DNA of 64,000 nucleotides from Lentisphaerota bacterium (GTDB taxonomy: Bacteria; Verrucomicrobiota; Lentisphaeria; Victivallales; Victivallaceae). The DNA is taken from positions 1 through 64,000 of the forward strand of contig SUWB01000006.1 of assembly GCA_015061745.1 (NCBI GenBank), written 5' to 3'. Below the pieces are notes generated by a model. It did not search any database and had not been told where the DNA came from. It saw only the letters and a list, made by a program, of their open reading frames with translations. Shown one piece after another: positions 1,434 through 29,182 of this stretch; the stretch's first letter is position 1; each line of letters begins with the position of its first letter. The translations under genes were made by a program, and so were the position numbers.

Positions 1434-4400
1434 ATGAAAACTTTTTTCTTTTTTCTGACGGCAGTTTTCTGTTTGGTTCAGCTTCAGGGCGCAGATGTTT
1501 TCACCTCAGGCGGAATTGAGACAGACTGGTCGAAATATCAAACCCGGGACGAAGCAGAAGTAAAAAGCACCATCAATTTTGTCCGCAACGGTTCTTTTGA
1601 AAAGCCTGTCAACTTTGGCGAGCGGAAAAGCATTTGGAGAGCCCAGACCCGCACTCACGGTATGAAGAAAACTCCTGAAGCTCTGGCGTTTCAGGCCCGT
1701 TTCGCCAAGGCAGGGACACGGAAGATTACTCAGATTTCAGCTGCTGATGGGAAAAGTTGCATTCTCATCAAGACACCTGATGAGGTAAAAGAGTGGTTCA
1801 AGCCCTTTCCGCAGATTTCCAACCGTCTTATCCAGAAGGTTCCGGTTCAGGTAAACGAGGAGGGAACTTTCCGTCTGAGCTTCAAGGCCAAAGGGTATCA
1901 CACGCCGACAGCTCCCAACCGGGGATTGTTTCTGGTACAGGTCACCCCTGTGGGCTTCGTGCAGAAATCCAGATCAAGAAAGAATATGCGCTACGGTATC
2001 CAGAGGTTCTTTTCACTCCGCTCAGAGTGGAGCACCCATAACTTTGACTTCTCTCTGCCCGCAGGATGCAAGGCGGCCAACGTCACTCTTTCCCTTTACG
2101 GTGCCGGTGAAGCCTGTCTCGATGATGTGCGGCTTTTCCCTGTGAAATTCACGGGCGATCCTCTTCAGGTGCGGCTTATGCCCTATGCGCTTCTTGACAA
2201 TACCTTTTGTCTCGGCGAAAAACTGCCCGGGGTTATGAACTTTGCCTTCAATTCTCCTGATAAAAAATTCAAAGCAAAGAAGATGACTCTTGAATTGCGT
2301 CTGCCTGAAGGTTTCAAAATAACCGACGTGCGCCAGAACTGTACCCTTGTCTCCAAAGGGAAGGGCGTATGGGAAATAGGGCTTACCCGGCTGCTGCCTG
2401 CGGCTCTTAAACGCCCCTGGTATGTTCAGCACGGATGTTCGGTGATGGTGGAAAGCACCCTGCCTGCTTCCGGAAAACTCTATGCTCTGCGCTACCGTCT
2501 CAAGGACGGAAAATGGCAAGGCAGGGAAAATACCGTTTACCTGAAAGTTATTCCTGCAGTTCAGGGGAACCGCCCTGAAAAGTTCCGTTCATCAGCTATG
2601 CTGAATAATGAATGGTCTTTTGAAAAGGCCGGTGTCGAAAAGATTGCCGACTTCTATATGACCAGTGGTTTCTCCGCCATTTTCGGAGCCAAAGGTCCCG
2701 TTTCAAAGGCTATGAAAGCCCGTAAGATCCACCGCTATCTGCAAAACTCTCATCTGGCCAACGGATTCCGTCTGGGGGAAGGGGAAAAACCTGAATTTGC
2801 CCAGTTCAAGATGGTTGACGGCAAGCCCTATTCCCGCAAGGTCTGCCCTGTGGAAGTCTACACCAGAGGCCCTTACTATATGGAGGCTGTCTATAACAAA
2901 CTGCTCAAATCTCTCATCGCCGATCAGGATCTCACTGACAGCTTTATGCCCAACTGGGAGCCTTACTATCTGGACTCCAAAGGCTGTTTCTGTAACCGCT
3001 GCCGGGAGGAGTTCGTGAAATATTATGCAAAGCAGATCCCCAAAGAAGAGGTTATGAAAGTATGGCCGGGGGAATTGCTTCAGAAGTATGCTGAGGAGTA
3101 TTTTGCTTTCCGTTCCTGGCAGCACGGAAAATTGATTGAGACTCTCCATAAGGATGTGACTGCCATCGGCAAAAGTGTCGGCAAAGAGAGCTTCTTTATC
3201 CCCGAACTCTCCTGGAAGTGCGGTACGCACAAACATAACTACTACTGCAAACAGTACAATATCAAAGAGTTTATGCACAAACTCCCCTGGCTTGAACTGT
3301 GGGGGCCTTATATCTATCACCGGGCTGGGCAGATCTATGACTATTTCCCCACCCGCCATCTGGTCACTTACAATGCCGCAGGGATGATGAAGGAATTTTT
3401 CCGGGATCACAGTGCCAAAGGGCCTGTTGCCAGGCTCATTGCCTTCCCTCACGGTTACCAGAGCAACGACTGGGTGACGGAACCTGAAGCACTCGCCTTT
3501 GAGACATTGAGTTTCTTTGTCTGGGGATTTGAAGGGGTTTTCTGCTACTATTTCCCCCGGGGATATGATTACCGGCACTGGGCAGCTATGGCACGGACCA
3601 ATACCTTGATCGCCCGGTATGAAAACTTTATATTTGAAGGAAAAAATGACAATAAAGGTGTTTCAGTTCTCCCCCTGACTCCGGGGCCTGAAAAGCTTTT
3701 CTACCCCCCGGGGGCTGAGGAACCCGCTGGTGGAAGCGGAAACTTCCCCGGCTTGAGCAAAATGAAAATTCTCCAGTTCCAGGTCTGGCGGAAAAACAAT
3801 GAAATGCTCATCTGTACCGGAAACTTCTGGCAGAAAGGGGAACATTTTTTCAAACTTTCCATTGCCGGACTTGAACCGGGAAAAAAATACGGCGTTGAAG
3901 TCTCCGGCAAGGGGTACGGCAACTTCACCGGCAGAGAGCTTGCGCAGGGTATTGTGATGCAGACCGGTGCATTGCGCTGGCAGTTCATCCGTGTGGGAGC
4001 TTCCGCAGTTAATGAGGAGGTTTCACAAAGTTCCCTCAGGAAACTTATGGAATCCCGTCTGCCCCTTATCCGCAAGGCAGTTGAGTGGGAGAAAGCCCAT
4101 TACAAAAAGGTAAGTGCCTACACGGCGGCGGATAACCCCAAAGTGGATTACAATGCCCTCAAAAAAGTCACTTCAGCAGGCGTTACTGTTGCTCCCGGAA
4201 AGAGATCGTTGCAAATTTCCACCGCAAATTATACCCTTACTCTGGAGCCTTCTCAGGGAGGACGGATCCATAACTGGAAGTGCGGTTCTGATGTTATGAT
4301 CGGCAAACGCCCGCGATGGGGGTATGCTGTCCCGGCAGTCTGGTATCCTGCGGATGCGGCTCTGATGCTCCGTTCCGGTATGAAACTTGAATGGATCAAA

Positions 4401-4949
4401 AAGACAGACAAAGGTGTTTCCGTGAAACTTTCCCGTGTTATTTCTGCCAAGGATAACAGCCGTCTCGCGGGAAACAAATTGGAATTGACACACAGTTTTG
4501 CACCTTCATCTGTTGTGACCACGCTCCGTTTCACCAATTTGAGCCACGATGGAGTTGAATTTGCTTTCCGCTATCACAATATGTCTTCATTGCTGAGCAG
4601 GCAGAAGAGACAAACAGGAGAAGTCCTCTTTGCGTCCGGTGAAAGGTTCCCCCGCAGTTATGTTCAGAAATTCATTCGCACCTCTGCTCCTGATCCTTTG
4701 CTGGAAAAGGCCTACAAAAGAACCAAACACATAAGCACTGCCCGGGAATTTCCCGTTGTCCTTCAGGCCCCCTGGAGCAAGAACGCGTTGAAATTCTCCT
4801 TTGCTCCCCGTCCCCACTCCATTATGGTCTGGGATGAGGAAAAAATGGATTGCTCCACCTTTGAGCCGGTATATCCCAGAGTTCAGCTGGCTCCGGGAAC
4901 CAGTGCTGAGTTCACTATGTCAGCAGAAATCGTGAAGAGCTCCAAATAA
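1434..4949 (+). CDS. Large secreted glycoside-hydrolase-like protein
   Basis: The protein has 1171 residues with a clear signal peptide (hydrophobic residues 2-16, ending LQGA). The N-terminal third looks like beta-sandwich modules. The middle (about residues 390-800) resembles a TIM-barrel glycoside hydrolase and includes PNWEPYYLDSKGCFCNRC near residue 518, reminiscent of the cysteine cluster and DE/WEP acidic residues of GH42-type enzymes. The C-terminal third (SQGGRIHNWKCG onward) resembles a mutarotase-like beta-sandwich. Substrate is not known; plant or host glycans are likely from the neighbourhood. It follows a pseudopilin-like gene by 28 nt and precedes a Gfo/Idh/MocA gene by 61 nt with no terminator, so one operon is likely. 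The family assignment is tentative; a pure carbohydrate-binding scaffold cannot be excluded. Confidence 0.65.
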   Translation: MKTFFFFLTAVFCLVQLQGADVFTSGGIETDWSKYQTRDEAEVKSTINFVRNGSFEKPVNFGERKSIWRAQTRTHGMKKTPEALAFQARFAKAGTRKITQISAADGKSCILIKTPDEVKEWFKPFPQISNRLIQKVPVQVNEEGTFRLSFKAKGYHTPTAPNRGLFLVQVTPVGFVQKSRSRKNMRYGIQRFFSLRSEWSTHNFDFSLPAGCKAANVTLSLYGAGEACLDDVRLFPVKFTGDPLQVRLMPYALLDNTFCLGEKLPGVMNFAFNSPDKKFKAKKMTLELRLPEGFKITDVRQNCTLVSKGKGVWEIGLTRLLPAALKRPWYVQHGCSVMVESTLPASGKLYALRYRLKDGKWQGRENTVYLKVIPAVQGNRPEKFRSSAMLNNEWSFEKAGVEKIADFYMTSGFSAIFGAKGPVSKAMKARKIHRYLQNSHLANGFRLGEGEKPEFAQFKMVDGKPYSRKVCPVEVYTRGPYYMEAVYNKLLKSLIADQDLTDSFMPNWEPYYLDSKGCFCNRCREEFVKYYAKQIPKEEVMKVWPGELLQKYAEEYFAFRSWQHGKLIETLHKDVTAIGKSVGKESFFIPELSWKCGTHKHNYYCKQYNIKEFMHKLPWLELWGPYIYHRAGQIYDYFPTRHLVTYNAAGMMKEFFRDHSAKGPVARLIAFPHGYQSNDWVTEPEALAFETLSFFVWGFEGVFCYYFPRGYDYRHWAAMARTNTLIARYENFIFEGKNDNKGVSVLPLTPGPEKLFYPPGAEEPAGGSGNFPGLSKMKILQFQVWRKNNEMLICTGNFWQKGEHFFKLSIAGLEPGKKYGVEVSGKGYGNFTGRELAQGIVMQTGALRWQFIRVGASAVNEEVSQSSLRKLMESRLPLIRKAVEWEKAHYKKVSAYTAADNPKVDYNALKKVTSAGVTVAPGKRSLQISTANYTLTLEPSQGGRIHNWKCGSDVMIGKRPRWGYAVPAVWYPADAALMLRSGMKLEWIKKTDKGVSVKLSRVISAKDNSRLAGNKLELTHSFAPSSVVTTLRFTNLSHDGVEFAFRYHNMSSLLSRQKRQTGEVLFASGERFPRSYVQKFIRTSAPDPLLEKAYKRTKHISTAREFPVVLQAPWSKNALKFSFAPRPHSIMVWDEEKMDCSTFEPVYPRVQLAPGTSAEFTMSAEIVKSSK

Positions 4950-5010
4950 GCAAAGCAATTACAAAATTTATTGAAAAAACACCTCCTAAATATAAGGAAT
5001 TTTCAGTATT

Positions 5011-6342
5011 ATGCTTACCGCAATCATCGTTGGAGCCGGGCATCGTGCCCTGGCTTATGCACAACTTGCCAAAATCAAGGGAGAATCACTCAAGATCGTT
5101 GGTGTGGCGGATCCTCTGCCTGAACGGAGAAAATACACCCGTGAGTATTTTTCTTTCGGAGAGGAGATGTGCTTTGAAAGTGCTGAAGAACTGGCTGCCC
5201 GGGGAAAACTTGCTGATGTGATCATCAACGGAACTATGGATCAGCAGCACGTGGCAACTTCCATTCCCTTGCTTGAAGCAGGATATGATATGCTGCTTGA
5301 AAAACCCTTTGCCGTCAATGAAGCAGAGCTGCAGCAGCTTGCTGAAGCGGTCAAAAAGACGAACCGCAAGGTGATGATCTGTCATGTGCTGCGTTATGCA
5401 CCTTTTTATGCCGAGATAAAAAAACGCATCCTTAAGGGGGATATCGGCAGGATCCTCAATATCCAGACTGCCGAACACGTGAGCTATCATCACTTCTCAG
5501 CCTGTTATGTCCGGGGAAAATGGTCAAAGCACAGCGAATGCGGCGCATCAAGCCTCCTTGCCAAGTGCTGCCATGATATCGACTTGATCACCTGGTTCAA
5601 AAGCGGCGTGGAGCCTGTTTCTGTGGACAGTATGGGAGGCATCACCTTTTTCAATGCCGCCAATGCCCCTGCTGATTCAGGGAATTACTGTCTCATTGAC
5701 TGCCCCTTGGAGCATACCTGCGACTTTTCCGTGCGCCGTCTGCATTTGGACAACCCTGTCAGGTGGCGGAGCTACATCTGGCCCAAGAGTGCCTACTGTC
5801 CCGAAGCCAATACCCCTGAGTATCGTGAAGCCGCTTTGAAAGACCCCAATCATTCTCACTCCCGGTGTGTCTGGAAATGTGACAACGACCAGCCTGACAA
5901 TCAGGCGGTCGTGATCACCTTTGCAGACGGAACTGTTGCCACCCATACCATGGCTGCCAACACCGCCCGTCCCATGCGAAAGATCCACATCATCGGTACC
6001 GAAGGTGAGATCGAAGGTATTTTTGATGACAACAAATTTGTTGTCCGCCGCAGAGATCTGACACCCGGCCATCTGCAGCCCGGTCAGAAAGAGTATACTG
6101 AAGAGGTGGTGGATTTGGGCAATATGGGAGATACTACCGGCGCATTCGGTGACCACGGCGGCGGCGACTTGCGTCTGGCTATGGACTTTGTGGAATTTGT
6201 GGAGGGAGGGACTCCTTCCATTTCCTGCACTCAGCTTGCTGACTCCATCAACGGTCATTTGATCGTCTTTGCCGCTGATGAGGCACTGCAGAATGAAACA
6301 CGGCAATTCTTTTCCGAAGGGAAATTTGCTCCCCGCCGCTGA
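5011..6342 (+). CDS. Gfo/Idh/MocA family oxidoreductase
   Basis: A cytoplasmic NAD(P)-dependent sugar or inositol dehydrogenase-like protein of 443 residues. The N-terminal Rossmann motif reads VGAGHRA (residues 7-13), and the family signature EKPF appears near residue 96 (LLEKPFAVNE). The C-terminal alpha/beta domain is complete. The length is at the upper end for the family. It probably oxidises or rearranges a sugar released by the enzyme encoded just upstream. The start is an ATG with AAGGAA about 12 nt upstream. A strong bidirectional terminator follows at 6381. The substrate cannot be told from sequence. Confidence 0.85.
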   Translation: MLTAIIVGAGHRALAYAQLAKIKGESLKIVGVADPLPERRKYTREYFSFGEEMCFESAEELAARGKLADVIINGTMDQQHVATSIPLLEAGYDMLLEKPFAVNEAELQQLAEAVKKTNRKVMICHVLRYAPFYAEIKKRILKGDIGRILNIQTAEHVSYHHFSACYVRGKWSKHSECGASSLLAKCCHDIDLITWFKSGVEPVSVDSMGGITFFNAANAPADSGNYCLIDCPLEHTCDFSVRRLHLDNPVRWRSYIWPKSAYCPEANTPEYREAALKDPNHSHSRCVWKCDNDQPDNQAVVITFADGTVATHTMAANTARPMRKIHIIGTEGEIEGIFDDNKFVVRRRDLTPGHLQPGQKEYTEEVVDLGNMGDTTGAFGDHGGGDLRLAMDFVEFVEGGTPSISCTQLADSINGHLIVFAADEALQNETRQFFSEGKFAPRR

Positions 6343-23593: not shown

Positions 23594-25579
23594 ATGTTGT
23601 CCCGTGCACATACAGAATCTGCAATGTTCAATATAGATCCCGCTTATTCTGCAGAAGGTCAATACCCGATTGAATTTCCGGGGAAGGGCGTGTGGTTTTA
23701 CGGGCATTATGAACGGGAAGCCTTTATTCTCGAACGGATGTGCCGGGAAAAAAATGAAGCAAAACTCAAGGTCGGTTATACCGAGTTCCGCCGGGTCCCC
23801 GGCGCAAGAGCATTTTTCAAAAACAGTTTTGAAAAAAATGAGATTTTCATATTCAGGACGACCGGGGCTTTTGAACTTTGGGTCAACGGCAGAAAAATCC
23901 TGACTGCTGCAGAGCCGGAAAAGGAACATTCAGTACTTATACCGGAAGATGCAGAGGTGGTTTTGTGCATCCAATGTGAAGATATAACCCGGGAACTTCC
24001 CGCACTCTGGTGTCCTGTAAAAAAAGAAAACTGGTCCTATTCTCCCGACGGCCGGGAATACAGTACCGCCGTCAATTGTGCCGCAAGAGCTGACGGTATT
24101 GCTCCGCATCACGCTCCTATGGCTCAAATGGAACTTTGCCCCCGGCAAATCGCAGAAAATGTGTGGGATTTCAACACCGAGGTGCTGGGGATCGTTGAGA
24201 TCCGCTGTGCTGCAGAGGAAAAGCCGGAGATCTATGTGGGCGAAAGCCGGGCCGAAATGGAAAACCGTGATCCCGGCGTTGAAGAACAGACCAGAGAACT
24301 GATTTCCAGGGAACCCGGATGTTTTGTCAGTAAAGTTCCGCTGGCATTGAGATATATCCAGATTGAAAATGCTTCTGCTCCGGAAGTGAAACTTAAAGGT
24401 TTCTTTCAGCCTGCTGAGTACAAGGGGGCCTTTGCCCTTCCGGAAGACGGGGAAATGACAAAGATCTGGATGCACAGTGCTTACACTTTGCGCTTGTGTA
24501 TGATGAATTTTCTGCTCGACGGCATTAAACGGGACCGGCTGCCCTGGGCTGGAGATCTTGCTGTTTCTCTGCTGGGCAATGCTTATTCTTTTGGAAACAG
24601 CCAGCTTGTCAGAGATACGCTCTCTATTCTTGGCGCAGTCAGTGTCAAGGTCGCCCACATCAACACTATTGTGGATTATACCCTCTGGTACATTATCAAT
24701 CACGACCTTTATCAACTTTACTTTGCGGACCGGGAGTTTCTGGAACTGGAATACCCCCGCATCAGTGAAACGTTGGATTTTTTGCTGACACTCCGGGAGG
24801 AAAGAGGATTTCTCCGTGCAGACCGTCCGGGAGATTGGCTTTTTATTGACTGGGTCCCCGGGGAAAAAATAACTGCATTGCAGATGTTGTTTGTTATGGC
24901 CTTGCGCGCAGGTTCCCGACTTGCCCGGAGAATGAACGATTCCATACGGAGCGAAATACTTGAAAACACTGCCGCACAGCTTGTCACTGTTGTAAAGGAA
25001 AAGTGTTTTGATTCTGAAAAAGGACTTTTTACCGTTGCTCCGGATGCAAAGGAATTTTCACGTCACGCCAATTTGCTTGCCGTGACAGCCGGAGCTGCTG
25101 AGGGGATAAGTACAGAGTTTATAAAAAAGGCATTGACAGAAAAAAAATTGCCCCCTGTGGGAACGCCTTATATGTCGGTGTTTGAAGCAATGGCCTTGAG
25201 TTGCTGCAACGCCCCTTGGGAAGCTGTCGCCAAGGTCAGAGAAATCTGGGGAGGTATGCTCAGAGAGGGGGCTTCCACTTTCTGGGAAGGCTTTGATCCG
25301 GCACATTCCGGAAATGAACATCTTGCATTTTACAACCGGCCTTTCGGCAAAAGTCTCTGCCACGCCTGGAGCGCAGGTCCCCTCTTTCTGCTGCCTCAAC
25401 TTTTTCTGGGCATTGAAGTTCTTGAAGATGGCTGGCGCAAATTCCGTGTCGCTCCCCTGCCGGGAATCACGGCGTCGGCTGCAGTGCCTACTCCGTGGGG
25501 AAAGATCCTGATCGACGTTGTTGATGGTAAACTTGTTTCACTTTCTGCCCCTGAACAATGTACAAAAGTGAACGATTGA
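23594..25579 (+). CDS. GH78-like alpha-L-rhamnosidase
   Basis: A 661-residue protein lacking a signal peptide, so probably cytoplasmic. The catalytic six-hairpin domain includes the family signature DGIKRDRLPWAGD (about residues 310-322), and aromatic and acidic positions follow through the barrel. GH78 enzymes cleave alpha-L-rhamnose by inversion. The N-terminal beta domains are shorter than in many GH78 members. The start has GAAAGGA upstream. Its partner is the PL26-like lyase, which would supply rhamnose-containing products to be trimmed inside the cell. Confidence 0.85.
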   Translation: MLSRAHTESAMFNIDPAYSAEGQYPIEFPGKGVWFYGHYEREAFILERMCREKNEAKLKVGYTEFRRVPGARAFFKNSFEKNEIFIFRTTGAFELWVNGRKILTAAEPEKEHSVLIPEDAEVVLCIQCEDITRELPALWCPVKKENWSYSPDGREYSTAVNCAARADGIAPHHAPMAQMELCPRQIAENVWDFNTEVLGIVEIRCAAEEKPEIYVGESRAEMENRDPGVEEQTRELISREPGCFVSKVPLALRYIQIENASAPEVKLKGFFQPAEYKGAFALPEDGEMTKIWMHSAYTLRLCMMNFLLDGIKRDRLPWAGDLAVSLLGNAYSFGNSQLVRDTLSILGAVSVKVAHINTIVDYTLWYIINHDLYQLYFADREFLELEYPRISETLDFLLTLREERGFLRADRPGDWLFIDWVPGEKITALQMLFVMALRAGSRLARRMNDSIRSEILENTAAQLVTVVKEKCFDSEKGLFTVAPDAKEFSRHANLLAVTAGAAEGISTEFIKKALTEKKLPPVGTPYMSVFEAMALSCCNAPWEAVAKVREIWGGMLREGASTFWEGFDPAHSGNEHLAFYNRPFGKSLCHAWSAGPLFLLPQLFLGIEVLEDGWRKFRVAPLPGITASAAVPTPWGKILIDVVDGKLVSLSAPEQCTKVND

Positions 25580-25632: not shown

Positions 25633-25661
25633 TTGTAATGTTGGCATTGAAGTAATATATT
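25633..25661 (+). promoter_or_regulatory. Promoter of the sigma/anti-sigma/kinase operon
   Basis: TTGTAA (25633-25638), 17-nt spacer, TATATT (25656-25661). It has the housekeeping form, so autoregulation by the encoded sigma factor is not evident. Confidence 0.6.
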
Positions 25662-25677
25662 AAAAAACGATACATTA

Positions 25678-26259
25678 ATGCAGACAGGTGGAAGAGTGTC
25701 TTTTACAACAGATGTTTCTTTTTTGGAAAAAATAAGTGACGGAGATGAGATTTCCTGGAGTAAATTTCACGATATCTATTCTCCGTTGATCCGGTATTGC
25801 GGTCGTGAGTGGGGATTGAGTGAAAGTGAAAATGATGAGCTTGTTCAGGATGTGATGATCGGTTTTTTTATGGGATCAAAGACCTTTCGTTATGATCGTT
25901 CCAAAGGGAAATTCCGTTCTTATCTTCAGGAAATCGCCAAGACAAAAATCTTTGCCATACTTAAGAAACGTTCTCCTGTTTCCGCAGAAAAATTTGCAAA
26001 TCCCGCCCTGATGGACTTTGCATTTGATGAAAAATGGGATGCAGAATGGCATAATTATCTTTGTGCAGAGGCATTTAAATTGCTGCAGAAAGAGATGGAA
26101 GAACTTTCGTTCCGTTCCTTTTATATGTATGTTATGCAGAATCTTCCTCCAGCTGAGGTCGCTGCAGCTTTGGGCATTTCGGTCAACGCTGTCTACATCA
26201 ACAAATGCCGGGCACTGGAATTTCTGCGGCGGACTGTACACGAGTTGGAAAAATTGTGA
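25678..26259 (+). CDS. ECF-like RNA polymerase sigma factor
   Basis: A 193-residue sigma-70 family protein with region 2 (DELVQDVMIGFFMGSKTFRYDRSKGKFRSYL split over residues 60-90) and region 4 (LPPAEVAAALGISVNAVYINKCRALEFLRR split over residues 155-185). Regions 1 and 3 are absent, as in ECF factors. The ATG at 25678 is close to the promoter; an in-frame GTG at 25696 has AGGTGGAA upstream and may be the true start. Its stop overlaps the next start (GTGA). It is coupled with an anti-sigma-like protein and a kinase. Confidence 0.85.
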   Translation: MQTGGRVSFTTDVSFLEKISDGDEISWSKFHDIYSPLIRYCGREWGLSESENDELVQDVMIGFFMGSKTFRYDRSKGKFRSYLQEIAKTKIFAILKKRSPVSAEKFANPALMDFAFDEKWDAEWHNYLCAEAFKLLQKEMEELSFRSFYMYVMQNLPPAEVAAALGISVNAVYINKCRALEFLRRTVHELEKL

Positions 26260-26501
26260 CAAATTTGGTTATGAGACACTTTGAAGAATACGAAATAGAA
26301 CATCTTGTCAATTCCACGGGAACTTTGTGGTTCCGGCTGCTTTGCCGGATGCACTTGAAAAACTGTGCTCTCTGCCGCCAGCGTTATGCACGGGTCATTG
26401 AAGGAAAAAAGAGTGCTGAAAAGTTCCGGACGGCGATATTGCGTTTTTCTGCTGACAGTTCTTCTCCTGCCGGCGGAGAATATTCCGGAGATAAACAATG
26501 A
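26256..26501 (+). CDS. Small zinc-finger anti-sigma-like protein
   Basis: An 81-residue protein starting at a GTG that overlaps the sigma-factor stop. It contains H-L-K-N-C-A-L-C, the H-x3-C-x2-C signature of zinc-binding anti-sigma domains, but no membrane segment, so it would be a soluble regulator. Its own stop overlaps the kinase start (ATGA), so all three genes are translationally coupled. An ATG 15 nt further in is a possible start. Function is inferred from the motif and position. Confidence 0.65.
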   Translation: MTNLVMRHFEEYEIEHLVNSTGTLWFRLLCRMHLKNCALCRQRYARVIEGKKSAEKFRTAILRFSADSSSPAGGEYSGDKQ

Positions 26502-29182
26502 TTTCCGGGGGAGAAATCTGCCCTAAATGCTTCCTGCAGCTTGAAAAGAACAGTTCCGGAGAATATTGCTGTCCCCGGTGCGGAACTGCTGCCGGAATTT
26601 CGGCAAATGAAAAAAAAACTGAATCTCTGTTAACTCCAGGAACTGTCTTTGATAAGTACCGAATCGTCCGCATCGTCGGTTACGGCGGTATGGCTGAAGT
26701 TTACGAAGCACAGCATTTGCTTTTGCACCAGACCTTTGCTCTCAAGGTTATCAAGAATTTCGGCAGCGAAAAACAATCTCACGCCAATAAAAGATTTTTG
26801 AGAGAGGCCAAGTGTTTTCATCTGCTTGAACATCCCAATATTGTCCGGGTTTATGATATCGGATGTGATGCCAATACGGGATTTCTTTATATTGCGATGG
26901 AATTCCTTGAGGGAGGGAACCTGCTGCTGGAAGATGGAAAAACTCTGCCGGAAAAGGAACTGCTCAATATTGCCCGGGATATAGCTTTGGCTCTGACTGA
27001 GCTGGAAAAACAGCAGATGGTGCACCGGGATATAAAACCTTCAAATATTATGCGTACCGCAGACGGCAGTTATAAACTTATGGATCTCGGTATTGCCAAA
27101 ACCGCTTGGGAAGAACCCGCAGAAGGGTACACAATCACGCTGGATGATGTGGTCATAGGAACACCTGCTTACGCCAGTCCTGAGCAGTGCCGTTCTCCTC
27201 ATAATGTGGATATCAGGGCTGATATCTATTCATTGGGAGTGACCTTGTATCAGTTGGCAAGCGGCGTAAAACCTTACAACGGCATTACGCCGGTGGAAAC
27301 GATACTCAATGTTTTGAACACAGTCCCCAGACCCTTGGCTGTGATGTCAAAGGAGCTGAGTGTCCCTTTTATGGAACTGATCGAGGCGATGATGGCAAAA
27401 AATCCCGACGATCGTCCCCCGGATGCCGGAACTTTGTCTGCGATGATCGAAAATGTCAGACAAGGGAAACGTTGTGTTATCCGGCGCAAAAGATTCTGGA
27501 AGAACGGACTTTTTACGGGAGCTGCTTTTTTTCTGCTGCTGATTATTATTGCTGTTGTTGTTGTTTCAGTCCGGGATCACAGGGAACGAAAGAGAGTTTT
27601 GACTGAACTCAATCACATATCGCAGATTGCAGCGAATGAAAAAAATTCTGCACCTGCCGTGTTGCCGGAAAAAATAAAAACGCCTGAAAAAGAGTTTCTT
27701 ATTGCTCCTTTTATTGACACTTCACAACCGAGAGGCCTGGCTGTCCGTTTGAATGAAAGCCGGAAGATTCTTGCATACCTAAAATCTCCGGAGGCGAAAG
27801 GGATTGCATTTTCTGAGGAAAGAAAAAAATTCTTTTCTGAGCGGGTGCGCACTCTTGAAAATCTGATAAGGCGCAAAAATAAACGCAAAGAAAGAGCCTG
27901 CCGTATCAGCTGTTCACCGGAACTGCATAAAGAGATCCGGGATTGCCTGAAAAACTGTAAAGAACCTTTCAGATTCAATAAGCTCAAAGCACACATCTCC
28001 AATGGAATAATGCGCGCTCTGCAGGCAGGGGAGATAGATCCGGATTCTCTCTTTACCGATGGAAGAAATGAGAAACGCTCTCTGACGGGCATCGCCCTGA
28101 GCGGATTTCTGCCCTGGTCTGAGGAGATGTTGAAACTCCTGATATTTTCCGGAGCTGATATCGACAATAATCTGGGAACTCCTGTCGCATTTCCGCCCGG
28201 GCCCCGGGAAACAAAAATCTGGGAACGGCTCACTGGAATATGTGTCTTTAACGGAGTTGATAATATTGACACCGGAATCCACGGTCCTCTGCTGCTCTCA
28301 GTGGTCAATCCCCGCCATACCTATCTGGTCTGCCGTCCTGAAAAAAACAGCATTGACTGGAATCTTGCCAATTTTCTGGTCGATACGGGAACTTTGCTGG
28401 ATGCAGAAGATCCCCAGGGACGGACTGCCTTGCACTATGCGGCACTTCATAACCGGGGGGAACTTATTACCCGGATGCTTCTTGCCGGAGCTCTTTCCGG
28501 CAGACACCGCGATCAGGACGGCAATACACCTTATCATTATGCTATCAGAAATCACGCTGCTTCGGCTGTTGCCGCATTGGAGCGTTTCGGACTGAGTGTG
28601 CCTGTCTCCCGGGAGGATCGGGCTCAGGGAGCATTGCTCAAAGGGATTATGAGTAATATCCCTTTGCAGGTCGAACAGGCTCTTGATGGGGGGGCTTCAC
28701 TTGATTATGTTTACTGCAACGGTCTTAATGCTCTGCAATGTGCTGTACTTGTGAAAAATCTGCAGTTGGTGAAGTTTCTTATGTCAAAGGGAGCTTCTCC
28801 CCGGAGCAATGCCGGACGCATTTCCATACTTGGTATTGCTGTTTGCACAGGGGCCCCGGAAATACTGGAGTATCTGATCCAAAAGATCAAGCTCAAAAAT
28901 ATGACGTGGCAGTATGGGCAGAAAAAACTTTATCTGCCTGATGCCATTCTTTCCCATTACAGAAAGGATCCGGAAAAGGCCAAACCTTTCTTTTCTGCGT
29001 TACTCCGTAACAAGTGGGATATCAATATGCTTTCTCCCACAAAGAAAACAGCCTTGCAGCAGGCTCTCAGCTATGGGGACGTTCATCCGGATGTGGTCCG
29101 TTTTCTCCTTGATTCCGGAGCTGAAAAGAAAGGCATCCTGACTCACCGCAATCCGGAAATCCGCCGATTGCTTCAGAAATAA
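26498..29182 (+). CDS. Membrane Ser/Thr protein kinase with zinc ribbon and ankyrin repeats
   Basis: An 894-residue protein. It has a zinc ribbon (C8, C11, C25, C28) and a PknB-type kinase domain (about 50-325) with glycine loop VGYGGMAEVYEA, lysine in FALKVIK, catalytic HRDIKPSN near 176, metal motif DLG in place of DFG, and SPE. A single transmembrane helix follows (about 345-365), then a basic linker. A C-terminal ankyrin-like region runs from about 610 to 890 (DAEDPQGRTALHYAALHNRGEL, DYVYCNGLNALQCA). Whether the ankyrin part is outside the cytoplasm depends on topology. It probably controls the sigma factor by phosphorylation. Confidence 0.88.
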   Translation: MISGGEICPKCFLQLEKNSSGEYCCPRCGTAAGISANEKKTESLLTPGTVFDKYRIVRIVGYGGMAEVYEAQHLLLHQTFALKVIKNFGSEKQSHANKRFLREAKCFHLLEHPNIVRVYDIGCDANTGFLYIAMEFLEGGNLLLEDGKTLPEKELLNIARDIALALTELEKQQMVHRDIKPSNIMRTADGSYKLMDLGIAKTAWEEPAEGYTITLDDVVIGTPAYASPEQCRSPHNVDIRADIYSLGVTLYQLASGVKPYNGITPVETILNVLNTVPRPLAVMSKELSVPFMELIEAMMAKNPDDRPPDAGTLSAMIENVRQGKRCVIRRKRFWKNGLFTGAAFFLLLIIIAVVVVSVRDHRERKRVLTELNHISQIAANEKNSAPAVLPEKIKTPEKEFLIAPFIDTSQPRGLAVRLNESRKILAYLKSPEAKGIAFSEERKKFFSERVRTLENLIRRKNKRKERACRISCSPELHKEIRDCLKNCKEPFRFNKLKAHISNGIMRALQAGEIDPDSLFTDGRNEKRSLTGIALSGFLPWSEEMLKLLIFSGADIDNNLGTPVAFPPGPRETKIWERLTGICVFNGVDNIDTGIHGPLLLSVVNPRHTYLVCRPEKNSIDWNLANFLVDTGTLLDAEDPQGRTALHYAALHNRGELITRMLLAGALSGRHRDQDGNTPYHYAIRNHAASAVAALERFGLSVPVSREDRAQGALLKGIMSNIPLQVEQALDGGASLDYVYCNGLNALQCAVLVKNLQLVKFLMSKGASPRSNAGRISILGIAVCTGAPEILEYLIQKIKLKNMTWQYGQKKLYLPDAILSHYRKDPEKAKPFFSALLRNKWDINMLSPTKKTALQQALSYGDVHPDVVRFLLDSGAEKKGILTHRNPEIRRLLQK

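Follow-up and report, generated by a model that had tools for sequence, protein, structure and literature searches.

In a 64,000-nucleotide stretch of DNA (the window) from the 3.1-Mb draft genome of a gut Lentisphaeria bacterium, three co-directional genes on the forward strand encode an ECF sigma factor, a protein resembling small soluble zinc anti-sigma (ZAS) factors, and a kinase. We consider it reasonably probable that this operon constitutes an anti-sigma-gated, kinase-controlled ECF module, in which a receptor kinase controls the release of the sigma factor from a dedicated ZAS protein. In such a module the ZAS protein would bind and silence the sigma factor, the C-terminal domain of the kinase, located outside the membrane, would sense an envelope signal, and that signal would switch the kinase such that the sigma factor would be freed via phosphorylation of ZAS, of sigma, or of both; the zinc site might be structural, or might add a redox or zinc input. 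The nearest named relatives of the window genome are Lentisphaeria MAGs from the caecum or colon of deer, yak or sheep.

The operon and its three products

The operon is preceded by a promoter-like element of the sigma-70 type, TTGTAA-17 bp-TATATT (25633-25661, forward strand), recognized by its consensus match alone. The position of this element is kept in the close orthologues L081-L083, while L085 has TTGACA-17-TATATT. The conserved sequence looks like a housekeeping promoter, and autoregulation of the operon by its ECF factor was rejected on that account. The gene 5' of the operon (23594-25579), by appearance that of a glycoside hydrolase, is the same neighbor that is found upstream of the trio in L081-L083, which is probably plain synteny of close species.

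The sigma factor gene extends from 25696 to 26259 (forward strand). While the initial annotation began at the alternative start, ATG 25678, the GTG at 25696 is the more likely start, because orthologues align from VSFTT; that codon also has AGGTGG just 5' of it (25686-25691). For the second gene (26271-26501, forward strand; 76 residues), the same annotation had described a GTGA overlap with the sigma gene, which is probably wrong: homologues begin with M-R-H-F-E, so that ATG 26271, 11 nucleotides past the sigma stop codon, is most likely the start, and GTG 26256 probably lies in frame by chance. The ATGA overlap that had been described between the second and third genes does exist (26498-26501), and the third gene (26498-29182, forward strand) encodes a Hanks-type Ser/Thr kinase of 894 residues.

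The product of the first gene was correctly recognized at the outset as a sigma factor, and its sequence places it as a two-domain ECF sigma factor with regions 2 and 4 only. It was matched by Sigma70_r4_2 (E=5e-6) and by the sigma70-ECF model TIGR02937 (E=4e-11, at the cut-off), and its region 2 scored 23.5 bits in Pfam, just below the 24-bit cut-off.

Class-I zinc anti-sigma domains (ZAS, or ASD-I) are characterized by an Hx3Cx2C motif and an upstream ligand, carried on a three- to four-helix fold. The protein encoded by the second gene contains H-x3-C-x2-C and is devoid of a transmembrane helix, exactly as had been noted, and its putative ligands are H3, H28, C32 and C35. Scans of the single sequence against Pfam and NCBIfam gave no meaningful match, and an alignment profile and the predicted fold were informative instead. 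A profile of 13 sequences, including four planctomycete N-termini, matched ChrR (8e-5) and RslA (2e-4) in the PDB, and also DdvA and RsiW, and in the profile alignment the four ligands correspond to H6, H31, C35 and C38 of ChrR. The top PDB match, the collagen fusion protein 6mpx, was discarded as the sum of several short stretches, none of them significant alone. An AlphaFold2 model built from the profile alignment (pLDDT 82) contains helices at residues 6-13, 19-31 and 33-63, and among its best 10 Foldseek matches nine were chains of ChrR, RsiW or RslA, and the tenth was the AlgU-MucA complex. Taken one by one, the Foldseek E-values were weak (none better than 0.2), which is unsurprising for a protein of this length, and the weight of this comparison rests on the agreement among the matches. 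By profile, ligand register and fold, therefore, the protein is best described as a minimal soluble class-I zinc anti-sigma domain, with zinc binding and inhibition as predicted properties, and the initial description of it as ZAS-like is supported.

Among 93 ZAS relatives, His28, Cys32 and Cys35 are invariant, which is partly a consequence of how those relatives were selected; where position 3 could be aligned, it is His in 86 and Cys in 2. In the close orthologue L081 (5419-5628; G013:C201), the ZAS frame has an in-frame TAG directly after the CxxC, which represents either a real truncation or a draft-genome error. In L091 (3154-3399), from a Victivallis MAG, HxxxCxxC has been lost from the small gene that separates the sigma and kinase genes, both of which are retained.

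The zinc ribbon, single transmembrane helix and ankyrin-like repeats that had initially been ascribed to the kinase were all borne out. The ribbon, with C8, C11, C25 and C28 in a CxxC-x13-CxxC arrangement, was read directly from the sequence (26519-26581) and is found in the trio kinases of genomes G003, G012, G013, G178 and G181, the other trio kinases being without it. It is followed by the kinase domain (26657-27418, residues 54-307 in Pfam; Pkinase E=2e-43), in which the Hanks-type catalytic motifs are intact, including the ATP-site lysine, HRDIKPSN, DLG, and the SPEQ of GTPAYASPEQ. A single transmembrane helix at about residues 336-357 (27503-27568; hydropathy 3.06 over 19 residues) then leads, through a linker and helical region that appears in the AlphaFold2 model and is conserved in L081-L083 (27569-28039), to a solenoid of ankyrin repeats (28040-29179; Pfam Ank_2, E=2.5e-23). 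The AlphaFold2 model of the ankyrin part (pLDDT 73) was matched by ankyrins and DARPins in Foldseek. Each of these features lies on the forward strand.

The earlier suggestion that the ankyrin part faces outward is probably right. In 32 of 40 trio kinases a single transmembrane helix follows the kinase domain, and the mean number of lysine and arginine residues is 4.6 before that helix versus 2.6 after it (Wilcoxon p=2e-5 across the 32, a statistic that ignores kinship), a bias that fits a kinase domain inside, and a C-terminal part outside, the cytoplasmic membrane. The identity of that outer part is variable: ankyrin repeats are found in the window and in L081-L083, a thioredoxin-like match in L087 is weak and below the Pfam cut-off, and the C-termini of the remaining Lentisphaeria kinases that were scanned contain no recognized domain. 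Because the C-terminus varies among the trios in this manner, the ankyrin part is one of several exchangeable kinase ends rather than the core of the unit.

Conservation in Lentisphaeria and fusions in Planctomycetota

For the survey of genomes, a profile was made from the ZAS protein family only, using nine sequences that all came from trios and are all themselves among the resulting matches. This profile located 93 members of the family, distributed over 69 of the 198 Lentisphaeria genomes scanned, and among 388 sampled genomes of the phylum the family was seen in the class Lentisphaeria only. The trio, for which a survey had been proposed with the initial annotation, proved to be conserved: a sigma gene lies directly 5' of the ZAS gene in 81 of the 93 cases, and a kinase gene lies within 250 nucleotides 3' of it in 40. 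At 46 of the remaining places there was no kinase within that distance (one of these has a kinase at +269), and at seven the contig end was reached. Since the window's own genome contains nine kinase-domain matches in 3.1 Mb, chance adjacency of a ZAS gene and a kinase gene should occur in less than 1% of cases. The arrangement had first been called unusual, and it is indeed a real one; it is less singular than was thought, in that the set recurs across several Lentisphaeria families with the ankyrin part exchangeable.

The same genomes also contain sigma genes that overlap a kinase gene without a ZAS gene, sigma-ZAS pairs without a kinase, and sigma genes accompanied by an FHA protein; no common third gene was found at the kinase-less sigma-ZAS loci. 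At L086 (about 1559-6260; G178:C26), a ZAS-less sigma-kinase pair lies directly 5' of a sigma-ZAS-kinase trio, forming tandem kinase-linked ECF units. At L074, L077, L080 and L076 (G029, G036, G034 and G035, of other families), a small FHA (phosphothreonine-binding) protein or an FHA-kinase fusion is encoded behind a related sigma gene, in place of ZAS and kinase, which suggests another phosphorylation-dependent layout.

Scanning of genomes with the sigma factor alignment also returned Planctomycetota, in which the sigma gene is often followed by one for a kinase whose N-terminus carries HxxxCxxC. Across eight planctomycete genomes, a kinase gene comes next after 33 of 40 homologous sigma genes, and in 29 of those 33 kinases a ZAS-like motif, accompanied by an appropriately spaced Cys or His, lies N-terminal to the kinase domain; eight of nine such N-termini that were tested exceed the zf-HC2 cut-off. 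In a control set of 40 kinases, drawn in rank order from a single complete genome (Pan216), the motif was present in none of 34 without an adjacent sigma gene versus three of six with one (Fisher p=0.002). Profile alignment of the Lentisphaeria ZAS family with the planctomycete N-termini gave a probability of 86% (E=5e-6). These comparisons of sequence indicate that a ZAS-like unit forms part of the kinase polypeptide in Planctomycetota, and that unit and kinase are encoded by two neighboring genes in Lentisphaeria. That the domain is fused to the kinase in one lineage and encoded next to it in the other is good evidence that the two act together.

Probable coupling of the kinase to the sigma factor

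A precedent for kinase-controlled release is provided by RshA, the zinc anti-sigma factor that binds SigH: once phosphorylated by PknB, it does so less tightly (PMC4601284, PMC8999054). In the window operon, we infer the step from kinase to sigma release, and the direction of the switch, because no common phosphosite was found in ZAS: among the 93 relatives there was no Ser/Thr site specific to the kinase-linked members, and T16 was dropped as a candidate because its conservation does not extend beyond the window's own clade. Counting against the module are the absence of an adjoining kinase at about half of the ZAS genes and the presence of related sigma genes beside kinases without ZAS; both situations occur, and the parts can therefore work apart. 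The weakness of the single Foldseek E-values and the stop in the ZAS frame of L081 speak against it as well.

Such ZAS-less sigma-kinase neighbors, found in the same genomes, would also suit direct activation of the sigma factor through phosphorylation by the kinase, in the way that PknT acts on EcfP (ECF43), with the zinc protein as an accessory or a remnant. We regard this route, although it is the one published for kinase-linked ECF groups (PMC8999054), as quite unlikely here. The EcfP/ECF43 route proceeds by phosphorylation of a sigma factor without the acidic DAED motif (PMC8999054, PMC8103513), and requires that this motif be lost; the corresponding motif of the window sigma factor is ENDE, and two or three acidic residues occupy the DAED columns in 36 of 37 trio sigma factors. 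At least two acidic residues were likewise found in all 44 sigma factors from ZAS-only loci, in all 11 that are kinase-linked without ZAS, and in 39 of 40 from Planctomycetota. The known ECF43 pairs, EcfP-PknT of Vibrio parahaemolyticus and EcfK-PknS of Xanthomonas citri, resemble the window in that the ECF gene adjoins a gene for a transmembrane Hanks kinase, but their DAED motif is replaced by uncharged, phosphorylatable residues and they are reported to be without an anti-sigma factor, whereas at the window the acidic motif is kept and a ZAS gene sits between sigma and kinase. EcfP-like activation is disfavored by this retention of acidic residues, as is a merely accessory zinc protein by the clear constraint on the ZAS ligands; with its acidic motif kept, the sigma factor would be expected to work as soon as it is released.

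The 46 ZAS genes without a nearby kinase, together with the frequency of redox sensing among soluble ZAS proteins (PMC7406223), would fit two independent inputs, with ZAS sensing cytoplasmic redox or zinc in the manner of RsrA or ChrR and a kinase that is merely co-transcribed and has other substrates. This is nevertheless unlikely, given that the ZAS/kinase adjacency recurs in many families and that the planctomycete fusion is specific to sigma-adjacent kinases. That fusion is compatible with docking as much as with inhibition, and in the window clade the kinase carries its N-terminal zinc ribbon where planctomycete kinases have ZAS; both observations would accommodate a zinc protein that serves as an adaptor, bringing sigma to the kinase, and not as an inhibitor. 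An adaptor is very improbable, however, since the characterized class-I domains that were matched by profile and fold (ChrR, RsiW and RslA) are inhibitors, and since close to half of the ZAS genes stand without a neighboring kinase.

Relation to known kinase-linked sigma factors

Like the window, the systems SigH-RshA-PknB and SigE-RseA-PknB of Mycobacterium tuberculosis pair an ECF sigma factor with a zinc anti-sigma protein and add a Hanks kinase in the membrane (PMC4601284, PMC8999054, PMC10027907). In M. tuberculosis PknB phosphorylates the anti-sigma factor, as the window kinase may; PknB, however, acts as a general kinase and carries PASTA repeats, while the window kinase is encoded within the sigma operon, as its third gene, and has an outer domain of ankyrin repeats (other domains in relatives). 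A review names six ECF groups that are linked to kinases, several of which are planctomycete, and reports that an anti-sigma factor is usually not encoded with them (PMC8999054). Among the planctomycete groups, ECF59, ECF61, ECF62 and ECF217 are like the window in being kinase-adjacent ECF genes of the PVC group, a likeness by gene neighborhood; they too are described as usually without a co-encoded anti-sigma factor (PMC8999054), whereas here a ZAS-like domain is either fused to the kinase or separate. Soluble ZAS proteins such as ChrR and RsrA have the class-I anti-sigma fold that is predicted for the ZAS protein of the window, in which the zinc ligands follow the ChrR register; unlike them, the latter has only 76 residues and no sensory domain, and the neighboring kinase would be the sensor.

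None of the components is new by itself, be it the ECF sigma factor, the ZAS domain, the receptor kinase or the kinase-adjacent sigma gene. What the present comparisons indicate to be new is an anti-sigma-like domain inside a kinase, at least in the planctomycete relatives of the window sigma factor, and its Lentisphaeria version as a tiny separate gene. No paper describing the ZAS-kinase arrangement was found in the open-access literature; an earlier description is possible, and novelty is to that extent uncertain. We give about an even chance to the broader proposition that the 'kinase-only' ECF loci of Planctomycetota and their Lentisphaeria relatives conceal a zinc anti-sigma factor, either at the kinase N-terminus or in a tiny gene, and form a receptor-kinase/anti-sigma class with exchangeable C-termini (ankyrin, thioredoxin-like, WD40, PEGA and FGE-like).

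Kinase-linked ECF groups are now explained mostly by direct phosphorylation of sigma, with EcfP as the model, and a restraining step may have been overlooked in systems credited to the kinase alone. If ZAS, beside or inside such kinases, is the real gate, sigma factors of the PVC group would be held by the anti-sigma domain of a receptor kinase, providing a short route from membrane to promoter and explaining why kinase-linked sigma factors retain a normal RNA-polymerase-binding motif; such a gate also offers a defined interface and defined fusion proteins for testing. The ankyrin repeats, for their part, would serve as an extracytoplasmic sensor part in a bacterium. As a minor observation, the ZAS profile weakly matched the N-terminus of a CHAT-domain protein (PDB 8rot/8rw5; E=0.06), which is possibly another ZAS fused to an effector.
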